A stretch of 64,000 bases of DNA from Chroococcus sp. FPU101 (lineage in GTDB: Bacteria; Cyanobacteriota; Cyanobacteriia; Cyanobacteriales; Microcystaceae). Below are positions 4,013 through 9,950 of this stretch, piece by piece (the first letter of the stretch is position 1; every line of letters starts with the position of its first letter). A program made the translations under genes and the position numbers. The notes below the pieces were generated by a model that was not told the origin of the DNA, did not search any database, and saw nothing but the letters and a program-made list of their open reading frames with translations. The stretch covers positions 310,001 through 374,000 of the forward strand of contig NZ_BLJI01000001.1 of assembly GCF_017312365.1 (NCBI RefSeq), read 5' to 3'.

Positions 4013-4762
4013 TTAGATTTTTCCAAAACGTCGATCGCGTTGTTGATAAGCTAGTAAGGCTTGATGAAAATGCTGACGGTCAAAATCTGGCCATAGCGTA
4101 CGGGTTACATAGATTTCAGCATAAGCCATTTGCCAGAGTAAAAAATTACTAATCCGCATTTCGCCACTGGTACGAATCAGTAAATCGGGGTGAGGAATGC
4201 CCGTTGTATACAAATGATGTTCAAACAAAGATTCATTAATCTCTTCGGGATTAATTTTACCTTGCTGAACTAAGGTTGCTATTTCTCGACACGCTTGAAT
4301 AATTTCTTGTCGTCCGCCGTAGTTGGTCGCTACACTAAATTGAGTCCCTGTATTGTTTTTGGTTTCATCCATCGATCTTTCGATTTCTTCTTGTAACGAA
4401 TCAGGGAGAGCCGATAAATTCCCCACAAAACGAATTTTGACATTTTCTGCCATCATTTCTTTTAATTCACGTCGCAATACCCGTTCAAACAAGGTCATCA
4501 AAAATTCTACTTCTTCTAAAGGTCTACCCCAATTTTCCGTAGAAAAGGCATAGGCTGTTAAAGCTGGAACGCCCCAATCTCGACAACAACGCAGTAAATT
4601 TTTGAGTGTGTCAACCCCACGCTGATGCCCCATAATGCGGGGTAAACTTCGATGTTTGGCCCAACGGCCATTACCATCCATGATAACCGCTACGTGCTTT
4701 GGTAAGCGTTTTTCATCGAGATCACTAGGTAATTCTTGTAACACTTTAAGCTGAACAGTCAT
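4013..4762 (-). CDS. uppS: Isoprenyl transferase (undecaprenyl diphosphate synthase family)
   Basis: Cis-prenyltransferase that condenses isopentenyl diphosphate onto farnesyl diphosphate to make the C55 carrier lipid for peptidoglycan and surface glycans. The 249 residues have [12 protein letters not shown] with the catalytic Asp near residue 29, the following basic [10 protein letters not shown], and AYAFSTENW, all diagnostic. A C-terminal region with DLLIRTSGE and RRFG is also present. Its start overlaps the cdaA stop by four bases, implying translational coupling. lysA lies further upstream on the same strand. Confidence 0.96.
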
Positions 4763-5697
4763 TTTTTCTTTTTAGGGGTCGATGCCGATGATCTAAGAAA
4801 GAATAGTTTGTATAGATTATGGCCTTGTATGCCAATTGTACGACCTAAGCGGCCTAAACTGGGTGTTACAGTTTCCCGTTCTACGGCGGGTGAAAACCGT
4901 TCATCTAATAATTCTTTTAATTTACTGCTGGTTAAAGGACGATTGAGCAAACCTTGTTCAGCGAGTGATATTGAACCCGTTTCCTCAGAAACAATGATAC
5001 ACAAACAATTATCTAATCGTTCGGTAATTCCCATTGCAGCCCGATGACGGGTACCAAGTTGACGGGAGGCAGTGCGATCAGAAAGTGGTAAGATCACGCC
5101 TGCTGAAATAATCCTTGCGCCTCGAATAAAAACGGCTCCATCGTGTAACAGGGTTTTCGGTTGAAAGATCGTTTGTATTAGTTCTTTGGACACTTCGCCA
5201 TTAACACTAACCCCAGGATTGACAAAATCTCTTTGATCAATACTACTGGCTGTTTCGAGTACCATCAAAGCACCAGTTCTATTTTGCGATAGTTCTTTAA
5301 CTGCGTCTACAATTTCATCAATCACATTATCAGGTTTCGGTATGGGTGAGCCTCGTTTAAAGAGTTGTAGAATTTGTCCTTGCCCTAATTGTTCTAAAAA
5401 ACGGCGGAACTCTGCTTGATAAACAAAGGCCATGGCAACGGATGAACCGATAACTAATTTTTCTATAACAAAGCTAAGTAATACCATACCTAATCTTTGG
5501 CTGATCACCGAAGCCAACATTAGGATAATTAATCCTCTAACCATCCACAGGGTACGACGTTCTCCAACAATAAAGAGCATCGTATAAACCAGAGAGAGGA
5601 CTAATCCAATATCCATCAGCGCGGTACTATTGGAGATCAGCCAAGAAATTAGCAAACGGTGGTCAGGAAAAAAACCCGACATGAGAAAGAAAATCAA
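4759..5697 (-). CDS. cdaA: Diadenylate cyclase CdaA (c-di-AMP synthase)
   Basis: Makes cyclic di-AMP from two ATP; in cyanobacteria this messenger is tied to osmotic, potassium and day-night control. The N-terminal part has three hydrophobic segments (about residues 14-100), followed by the DAC domain with LLHDGAVF (DGA at about 186-188) and LGTRHRAA (RHR at about 217-219), the catalytic and ATP-binding motifs. The length of 312 includes a basic tail ([10 protein letters not shown]). The start could also be the ATG six codons later. It lies between lysA and uppS, an arrangement that joins c-di-AMP to cell-wall precursor supply. Confidence 0.95.
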
Positions 5698-7282: not shown

Positions 7283-8833
7283 TCACAATAACTTTTTAGC
7301 TGATTCTTCGATTAACTTAGCATAAGTTTCAGAAGGCCGATCGCCTAAATGATCTTCTACAAGTCGTTGTGTTCCATGAGCATAATCGAGCGTTAATAAC
7401 CCAAAACGCGGTGTATACGATCCCCATTCATAATTATCCGTCAGTGACCAATAAATATAACCGATCATCGGTACGCCTTCATCGCGCAGACGGTTAATTT
7501 GTTGAACGTGTGCTTCTAAAAATTCACTTCGTCGCAATTCATCGGGACGTGGCGCGGCAATGCTATTATCGGGTTTACGACGTAGAGCCATCCCATTTTC
7601 GGCAACTAAAATGGGACAATTGTCAAATATTTGTGAATAATATTTACAAAAAAAGTGTAAGCCTTCGGGGAGCGATCGCCAATCCCACCATTTACTCGTA
7701 ATTCCACTCATCACCCAAGCGCGAAAATCTTTAGCCTCAAATTCAAAATCTGAAAACGACGGCAAACGGAAGGTATGGGCGAAAAAGGGATCATAATAAT
7801 CGATGGCAATGTAATCGAAAAATTTAGAACGTGGAATTGATTCTAAAGTCTGGAAAAAGGGTTCAAATGCTTTAAAATTAAAACTTTTGCGACCGAACCA
7901 TCGGGCTATTTTTCGAGCAATTAATCCGACGCGATAGGGAAGATCTCGACTAAAGGGAAGATCGGCGATGATTAAAGCATTTTCTAATTCTTGCGATCGC
8001 GTTTTAAAATAATTAGGGAGTTGATCGCGCTGCATAGACGTTTGTTTGAGCGATAATAAATCCCAAATGACCTTTTCTGACCAATATAAATCGCTACAGT
8101 AGGTATTAATCGAAACTTGAGGCGTTATCCAATTATTCGACTCATAAATGCTATGGATGCAATCATAACAGCGTACATGAGCGACCAATAAGTTATTATA
8201 AGCCTTTAAAGCTGCTTGAGTTCCCCACGCACCACCAGAGGGAAACATCGTACTTAAATAAGTATTCGGTACTAAAATATTCGGCTCATTAATGGTAATG
8301 TACCAGCAAATCGGCGGTAATTGATACTCATAAATCAAAGAACGGTTAATATGAGTCACCGTCATGCGAACATATTCAATAAAATAGTCGATCGTTTTTG
8401 GTTCTAACCAAGCATCCAAACCCAACCAAGCGGGATGGGTAAAATGAGACAGGGTAACTACGGGTTCAAGTCCATGATGACGACAAGAGGCAATAAGCTT
8501 CGCATAAGCATCGAGGGCATTTTTATCAAAAGGTGGCGGATCAATGGGTTCTAGGGTCGTACAAGGTTGAATCCGCGACCATTCCAGACTCAAACGAAAG
8601 CTATTAATACCCAAATTTTGGCAGATTTGAAAGTCTTCCTCGTAATGCGACCATAAATCGGCAGCTTTACCCGTAGACATGACTAACCCGTGCCTTTCGC
8701 TTTCTGACCAGTTATTTTGCGGTTGCCCAATTCCATTATAACCGCCTTCGCTTTGATATCCTGATGAAGCAACACCCCAGAGAAAAGATTCAGAACTATT
8801 TAACAAAGCTTTCTTCTCCTTTTGAATGGACAT
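7283..8833 (-). CDS. Glycoside hydrolase family 1 protein (beta-glucosidase-like)
   Basis: A GH1 TIM-barrel enzyme. The acid/base Glu is in TINEPN and the nucleophile Glu in VAENGM, with FLWGVASSGYQSEGG near the N-terminus and YWSLTDNYEWGSY near the C-terminus, so catalysis should be intact. No signal peptide is seen. The frame extends to 8854; ATG 8833 is given, but a TTG at 8806 follows an AAGGAG nine bases upstream and would shorten the overlap with the upstream gene to about 11 bases. That gene encodes an MGDG-synthase-like glycosyltransferase, so the substrate may be a glycolipid rather than a cellodextrin. This is inference; a plain beta-glucosidase remains possible. Confidence 0.9.
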   Translation of the reverse strand: MSIQKEKKALLNSSESFLWGVASSGYQSEGGYNGIGQPQNNWSESERHGLVMSTGKAADLWSHYEEDFQICQNLGINSFRLSLEWSRIQPCTTLEPIDPPPFDKNALDAYAKLIASCRHHGLEPVVTLSHFTHPAWLGLDAWLEPKTIDYFIEYVRMTVTHINRSLIYEYQLPPICWYITINEPNILVPNTYLSTMFPSGGAWGTQAALKAYNNLLVAHVRCYDCIHSIYESNNWITPQVSINTYCSDLYWSEKVIWDLLSLKQTSMQRDQLPNYFKTRSQELENALIIADLPFSRDLPYRVGLIARKIARWFGRKSFNFKAFEPFFQTLESIPRSKFFDYIAIDYYDPFFAHTFRLPSFSDFEFEAKDFRAWVMSGITSKWWDWRSLPEGLHFFCKYYSQIFDNCPILVAENGMALRRKPDNSIAAPRPDELRRSEFLEAHVQQINRLRDEGVPMIGYIYWSLTDNYEWGSYTPRFGLLTLDYAHGTQRLVEDHLGDRPSETYAKLIEESAKKLL

Positions 8834-9950
8834 CGTTGAGAATAAAAGAAGCAATATTATGAGCCGCGTTAGGTTTGCCAGTGGCTAAAGCAGCTTGACG
8901 CATTTGTGCTAAACGCTCAGGATAATTGAGAAGATACATCACAGTTTGTGCGACCATTTCAGGAAGACGTATCTGTATACCCGCCCCCGATGCAGAAATT
9001 ACATCGGCGTTTTGTTCCTCTTGCCCAGGGATGGGATCGATAATCACCATCGGAACCCCCCGTGCTAGGATCTCACTGGTAATCAGTCCACCTGCTTTGG
9101 TGATAATTAAGTCACTAGCCACAATCATGTCATCAACATAGTTGATCGAACCTAGTTTAACGAATTTCACCTGTTCAGTGTCGGTGAGATCTTCGATCGC
9201 GTCGAGTAATGTATCGCTTCTTCCTGCAATAATAGCAAGGGTTAAGGGGGTAGAAACCGTCAGAAAATCAGTCAGAATAATTTTGATGCGCTGCGGGTTT
9301 AAACCTCCACCAAATACCGTAATGACAGGTTGATCTAAAGGAATGTTATAACGCGATCGCATCTCCTTTTTATTTTTTGGTTCTAGGACTTCTGATTTGA
9401 TGGGAATTCCAGTAACGTGTAATCGTTCGGGGTTAGCCCCACGTTGAATAAGCATATTTACCCCTATTTCACTGGGCAAAAAATAGGCATCTATTTCATA
9501 GTTTAACCAACTACTATGGGCGATCGCATCAGTTACAACAACATAATGAGGAGTTGATAGATTGTTTTTTTGTTTCAATAACTGAATTAAACGACTGGGA
9601 ATTTGTTGAACCGAAATAATAATATTGGGATTCGTTTCAGTCACTAAATCTTCTAATTTTCTAAAAAATGGAAACTCTAATCGTGCAACCGAGAGATTAC
9701 CATCTAGAGATTCTTCAACATCATCACCGTCAGTGCCTTCATAAATTGCCTTATATAAAGTGGGAATTCTTTCACTCAATTGTTTATAGATTTGAGTAAT
9801 ACTACTACGATAGATGGCACTCGCATACTCTAGCGCATCTTGCGTGAGAACCTCTACATCAGGATAATTCAGAAATGCTTCAGTTAAAGCTTTAGCAGCA
9901 TTCAGATGTCCTGCACCAAGGGAAGCGTATAAAATGAGAATAGTCGTCAT
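8796..9950 (-). CDS. GT28-type glycosyltransferase of the MGDG synthase / processive diacylglycerol glycosyltransferase family
   Basis: The 384-residue protein starts ILYASLGAGHLNAAKAL, the signature of the MGDG-synthase N-terminal lobe that binds the lipid acceptor, and the C-terminal lobe has VFGGGLNP, VKLGSINYVDDMIVASD, TKAGGLITSE and DPIPGQEEQNA, the UDP-sugar site of GT28 enzymes. It probably adds a sugar to diacylglycerol or another lipid at the membrane surface. Most cyanobacteria make galactolipids by a different route (a GT2 glucosyltransferase plus epimerase), so this would be an extra activity. Its 3' end overlaps the GH1 gene, implying coupled translation. Confidence 0.88.
   Translation of the reverse strand: MTTILILYASLGAGHLNAAKALTEAFLNYPDVEVLTQDALEYASAIYRSSITQIYKQLSERIPTLYKAIYEGTDGDDVEESLDGNLSVARLEFPFFRKLEDLVTETNPNIIISVQQIPSRLIQLLKQKNNLSTPHYVVVTDAIAHSSWLNYEIDAYFLPSEIGVNMLIQRGANPERLHVTGIPIKSEVLEPKNKKEMRSRYNIPLDQPVITVFGGGLNPQRIKIILTDFLTVSTPLTLAIIAGRSDTLLDAIEDLTDTEQVKFVKLGSINYVDDMIVASDLIITKAGGLITSEILARGVPMVIIDPIPGQEEQNADVISASGAGIQIRLPEMVAQTVMYLLNYPERLAQMRQAALATGKPNAAHNIASFILNDVHSKGEESFVK

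Follow-up and report, generated by a model that had tools for sequence, protein, structure and literature searches.

The window, the whole 64,000-nucleotide stretch of Chroococcus sp. FPU101 DNA analysed here, carries a GT28 lipid glycosyltransferase gene whose end overlaps the start of a GH1 gene, and the two products almost certainly work together. As the earlier note had proposed, the genes form a functional pair, which is indicated by their conserved adjacency across phyla, by the recurrent stop/start overlap and by an apparently repeated independent assembly. The simplest reason for such coupling would be a shared substrate. In the literature searched, no description of such a GT28-GH1 pair was found.

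Conservation and overlap of the gene pair

In 292 genomes sampled across the cyanobacterial phylum, GT28 (at least 56% identity) and GH1 (at least 61%) were confined to one and the same set of six genomes, belonging to four genera, and were adjacent in each, in the order GT28 then GH1; five further genomes contained only a distant GT28 (32-36%). The chance of this full coincidence is ~1e-12 (hypergeometric). The GH1 alignment was also used to scan ~85,000 species genomes, and the scan, which was based on two short conserved peptides and thus reaches this GH1 family alone, yielded 78 loci in cyanobacteria (Planktothrix, Microseira, Acaryochloris, Elainella and others), in Verrucomicrobiota (Chthoniobacter, Methylacidiphilum, Methylacidimicrobium and many MAGs) and in a few Methylococcales methanotroph MAGs. 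GT28 lies directly upstream on the same strand at 74 of these loci, which together with the coincidence in cyanobacteria rules out a chance neighbourhood. Among the four exceptions, L103 is situated at a contig edge, and L069, L070 and L080 truly have no adjacent GT28; the genome of L080 carries a cassette-like GT28 on another contig. A cassette-type GH1 with no adjacent GT28 was also found in one of eight verrucomicrobial genomes in the survey (L239). Many related GT28s stand without GH1, thus GT28 does not need its partner.

The pairwise identities of GT28 and GH1 covary, both within cyanobacteria and within the remaining loci (none of 2000 permutations was as high). The GH1 is present in three of the 39 genomes of the window's own family, a patchy distribution that fits a transferred accessory unit. 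The Methylococcales may tentatively be regarded as a third phylum with the cassette, since their cases rest on MAGs and the only one of 185 sampled gammaproteobacteria with this GH1 family was the query's own genome. Clustering of all flanking ORFs at the 78 loci revealed no third widely conserved neighbour, and no recurrent transporter or sugar-use gene was found near the GT28-GH1 loci. An operon with the flanking lysA or PBP4 was rejected: L028 also has lysA after the pair, but the other loci differ in their surroundings. A plasmid-borne element was dismissed as there was no plasmid match, and foreign base composition was not informative (GC of the pair 40.6% vs 37.4 ± 2.9% for window segments). 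Downstream of lysA in the window (4013-5697), a CdaA-like diadenylate cyclase gene (4759-5697) and an undecaprenyl diphosphate synthase gene (4013-4762) share 4 bp.

The GH1 start lies inside the GT28 end, as originally observed, whichever of two candidate start codons is used (Table 1). The start is probably TTG 8806 rather than ATG 8833, which would make the overlap 11 bp, because an AAGGAG is suitably placed upstream and the frame of the upstream ATG is closed in L028 (Aphanothece hegewaldii), the nearest relative, with a GH1 that is 88% identical. In L028, the longer reading is interrupted by a stop in the same frame, so TTG must be the start, and it stands behind a perfect AAAGGAGGT. Counted on predicted starts, on which these numbers depend, the 11-bp overlap recurs in seven cyanobacterial loci besides the window (L028, with ATG starts at the other six, L029, L032, L034, L038, L054 and L090), and a 4-bp overlap occurs at 14 of the 78 GH1-family loci. 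The spacing in cyanobacterial cassettes ranges from the probable 11-bp overlap of the window to a gap of more than 200 bp in L019 and L020, thus tight coupling is common and not universal.

Table 1. Positions in the window of the two genes, their overlap and the protein features discussed (GH1 residues in ATG numbering).
Feature	Position	Strand	Details and basis
GT28 lipid glycosyltransferase, UgtP/MGD1-like, first gene of the pair	8796..9950	-	ORF, 384 aa; Pfam, profile, AlphaFold
YASLGAGH, residues 8-15, N-lobe glycine/histidine loop of MGD1/UgtP-type GT28	9906..9929	-	alignment
PGQE, residues 308-311, C-lobe GT28 motif	9018..9029	-	GQE invariant in 50 relatives
AAGGAG, Shine-Dalgarno-like, inside the GT28 gene	8816..8821	-	ends 9 nt before TTG 8806
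GT28 end / GH1 start overlap	8796..8806	-	11 bp; 38 bp (8796-8833) if ATG is used
GH1 protein	7283..8806	-	507 aa from TTG 8806; 516 aa if ATG 8833; ORF, Pfam, AlphaFold
GH1 acid/base E183, in TINEPN	8285..8287	-	invariant in 53 relatives
Helical insert specific to the family, residues 254-332, flanked by barrel strands 239-245 and 342-345	7838..8074	-	AlphaFold secondary structure
Cationic amphipathic helix, residues 298-317 (LPYRVGLIARKIARWFGR...), proposed membrane contact	7883..7942	-	hydrophobic moment 0.67
GH1 nucleophile E412, in VAENGM	7598..7600	-	invariant in 53 relatives

Origins of the pairing

The cassette GH1s form one separate, long-stemmed clade (support 100/100), with the cyanobacterial members nested among the verrucomicrobial ones; a grouping with cellobiose-type glucosidases, which the earlier note regarded as the outcome that would speak against a glycolipid role, was not found. 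Between cyanobacteria and Verrucomicrobiota the mean identity is 29% for the GT28s and 48% for the GH1s. A second, unrelated GH1 clade adjoins relatives of the verrucomicrobial GT28 at eight loci (L206-L210 and L213-L215) in the 194 Verrucomicrobiota genomes surveyed, with GH1 first at five of them and GT28 first at three. A single clade was rejected for all cassette GT28s (p-AU 0.012, LG+C20 mixture) as well as for the second-clade and cassette GH1s taken together (p-AU 0.005), p-values that are somewhat optimistic because the AU tests followed a quick tree, although the test groups were defined by adjacency; earlier quick trees on a single origin gave p 0.003 and 0.012. As monophyly of the cassette GT28s is rejected, two GT28 lineages have been combined with members of this one GH1 family. 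The two AU tests reject a single origin for the GT28-GH1 pair, and, judged from these trees, the pairing seems to have arisen independently at least three times. For approximately 35 further GH1s in these surveys, the ~1.5 kb of flanking sequence on either side contains no GT28 gene. Re-invention of the pairing with unrelated partners suggests that the combination itself is selected.

At one locus of the second clade (L214), GH1 overlaps GT28 by 4 bp. A third, distant GH1 is convergent to a GT28 with overlapping 3' ends (L221:4145-6643), which could be due to chance.

Features of the two enzymes

The GT28 passes the gathering cut-offs of Pfam with both its N-domain (MGDG_synth, PF06925, 1.8e-27, 96.9 bits vs 25) and its C-domain (Glyco_tran_28_C, 1.8e-6, 28.5 bits vs 22). 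The LYASLGAGH acceptor-lobe signature reported for it is part of ILYASLGAGH at residues 6-15, where G12, G14 and H15 are invariant in 50 relatives and the loop is aligned with the GxGH of UgtP and MGD1; the PGQE is aligned with PGQE of UgtP and AGQE of MGD1. In the profile ranking, UgtP (PDB 9wde, 234 bits) precedes MGD1 (183 bits) and MurG (65 bits). Structure comparison of the AlphaFold model (pLDDT 91) places the fold nearer to MGD1 (4wyi, Z 35.8) than to MurG (27.2) and other GT-B enzymes. The protein remains under the NCBIfam equivalog cut-off for the UgtP diglucosyl-diacylglycerol synthase (189 of 500 bits), and in the GT28 tree the reference branches of MGD1 and UgtP are too long for the GT28s to be placed against them, so that no shared clade with MGD1 is shown. 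The 5.29-Mb genome contains one further weak match (E 2.8e-4) and no second close member.

Family, fold and the acyltransferase neighbours of some related GT28s point to glycosylation of a membrane lipid; the claim that GT28 makes a glycolipid is supported by family and structure only. Three related GT28s that have no GH1 adjoin fused PlsC + GNAT acyltransferases (PF13444 with PF19576/PF01553; L219:1880-5003, L222:4502-7693 and L224:4379-7939), suggesting a pathway for a glycosylated acyl-amino lipid and supporting a lipid setting for GT28. The genes of another GT28 subgroup share 4 bp with a gene for a low-molecular-weight phosphatase-like protein (L201:1481-3261, L203:3467-5253 and L204:4367-6126), thus GT28 seems to acquire various co-translated partners.

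The GH1 (Glyco_hydro_1, PF00232, 4e-55, 187.5 bits) is catalytically complete, in agreement with the first description, since E183, E412 and the whole -1 subsite are invariant in 53 relatives. Its AlphaFold model (pLDDT 93.7) is a GH1 barrel. The protein lies under the TIGR03356 equivalog cut-off for beta-glucosidase BGL (187.6 of 478.5 bits), and a search of the 5.29-Mb genome found no second close GH1 match. In most PDB matches of the GH1 profile, nothing is aligned with the helical insert. It includes a helix with the highest hydrophobic moment in the GH1, arginine-rich in the window's protein, with a charge pattern that is not kept in every family member; from its moment, this helix could be the membrane contact. 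At L056 (4998-7511), the frame of a cassette GH1 stays open through a stretch like a signal peptide and a further domain resembling GH26-type glycosidases, which is either a fusion or a missed stop.

The normal cyanobacterial route to MGDG consists of MgdA and MgdE (PMC4742570). In the window's genome, the gene of an MgdA-like GT2 adjoins that of an MgdE-like hydroxylase/SDR protein (L255), which agrees with the expectation that MGDG arises here by another route, and each of the six cassette genomes searched contains an MgdE-like gene of ~400-420 aa. The idea that the cassette replaces the canonical MGDG route was rejected because MgdA/MgdE-like genes are retained alongside, and the GT28-GH1 pair is thus an addition to this route.

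Possible roles of the pair and comparison with known systems

The reading we prefer, with a probability slightly below one half, is a two-gene cassette for building and then trimming or turning over a glycolipid. The inverting GT28, the donor of which is probably UDP-glucose or UDP-galactose, would put a beta-linked sugar on a membrane lipid at the cytoplasmic face. The GH1, translated off the same message and coupled via the overlapping stop and start, would be a cytosolic retaining exo-beta-glycosidase that uses its helical insert to dock at the membrane and cleaves the terminal sugar from the GT28 product, which could either set a limit to the chains that a processive GT28 makes or serve lipid turnover. 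The membrane docking, the common substrate and the preference for trimming over transfer are what we infer. Trimming is favoured because unrelated GH1s were recruited more than once, a pattern more in keeping with a generic exo-glycosidase than with a specialised transferase invented each time. Against it stand the GH1s with no adjacent GT28, the many GT28s without GH1, and the futile cycle to be expected when a hydrolase is made together with its own transferase, unless selectivity or regulation prevents it. To our knowledge, enzymes making and cutting the same bond type are rarely locked in one coupled operon.

This futile loss would be avoided if the GH1 were an SFR2-like transglycosidase that moves sugar between glycolipids or to another acceptor in the membrane. 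The pair would then yield an oligoglycosyl lipid and need no second nucleotide sugar; we consider this possible but less likely than trimming. The retaining GH1 mechanism is intact, an active site on the membrane side would favour transfer over hydrolysis, the aromatic patch W382-W385 is conserved, and there is a precedent for transfer in SFR2, the plant GH1 that acts as a galactolipid:galactolipid galactosyltransferase (PMC11525325). The transfer by SFR2 needs loop A and the C-terminal region (PMC11155703; PMC11525325), i.e., an insert of ~47 residues (S90-K136 in AtSFR2) and residues 550-580 (PMC11155703). Neither has a counterpart in the window GH1, the N-terminal half of which aligns to bacterial GH1 with small insertions only and the model of which ends with the last barrel helix, and two unrelated GH1 clades would both need to become transferases. 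The proposal of the earlier note that the GH1 is a galactosyltransferase of the SFR2 type is thus not supported; the missing elements lower the probability that the protein is an SFR2, not that it works like one. The broader version, that bacteria have at least three times independently evolved a GT28 + GH1 module working like plant MGD1 + SFR2 in one co-translated unit, in which the GH1 redistributes sugars into oligoglycosyl lipids, is improbable in our estimation. If true, it would add a second, nucleotide-sugar-free layer of head-group remodelling.

The patchy distribution and the complete set of canonical galactolipid genes would also be more typical of an accessory product than of a housekeeping lipid. 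The pair could glycosylate and de-glycosylate a hydrophobic small molecule (a carotenoid, hopanoid, sterol or other natural product) for its storage or protection and later release, but GT28 belongs to the MGDG_synth/UgtP/MGD1 group and not to the GT1 group of macrolide and natural-product enzymes, and neither a biosynthetic gene cluster around the pair nor another widely conserved neighbour was found; we thus consider this quite improbable. Transfer as a unit would likewise explain the distribution if only regulation were shared and the GH1 were an ordinary cytosolic beta-glucosidase acting on imported glycosides, with adjacency as a by-product. Ordinary beta-glucosidases have the same fold and -1 subsite, but this explanation is very unlikely in view of the independent assemblies with different partners, the adjacency kept in otherwise unrelated surroundings and the lack of recurrent transporter or sugar-use neighbours. 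Confirmation of the pair's proposed role would mean that a bacterial glycolipid is edited after its synthesis in bloom-forming Planktothrix, verrucomicrobial methanotrophs and others, and would provide a tractable test bed for the switching of GH1 between cutting and transferring sugars on lipids.

Among known systems, the nearest solved sequence to the window GT28 by profile is UgtP/YpfP, a processive diacylglycerol beta-glucosyltransferase of GT28 that has the Pfam architecture, the GxGH loop and the PGQE motif in common with it; unlike UgtP/YpfP, the window GT28 is co-encoded with a GH1 and is far below the NCBIfam equivalog cut-offs. The best solved fold match is plant MGD1 (PDB 4wyi, 4x1t; rmsd 2.5 over 318 residues), at 25% identity. 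MgdA and MgdE likewise form a two-gene system in which a glycolipid head group is first made and then altered, but their families, a GT2 and an epimerase, are unrelated to GT28 and GH1. For the GH1, the top-ranked (tied) fold match is BGPh of Pyrococcus horikoshii (PDB 1vff, Z 38.5), a long-alkyl-glucoside GH1 for which membrane association and alkyl-glucoside preference have been reported (PMC4687101). BGPh is also the top PDB sequence match of the second GT28-linked GH1 clade (293 vs 264 bits), but it is only 29% identical to the window GH1 and in the tree is sister to neither GT28-linked clade, thus a BGPh lineage for these GH1s, suggested by the bit scores, is unsupported. The window GH1 shares with SFR2 the functional pairing with a GT28-type glycolipid synthase and the intact active-site glutamates, and it is set apart by the lack of loop A and of the 550-580 region (PMC11155703), by a different helical insert and by its bacterial, operonic setting.
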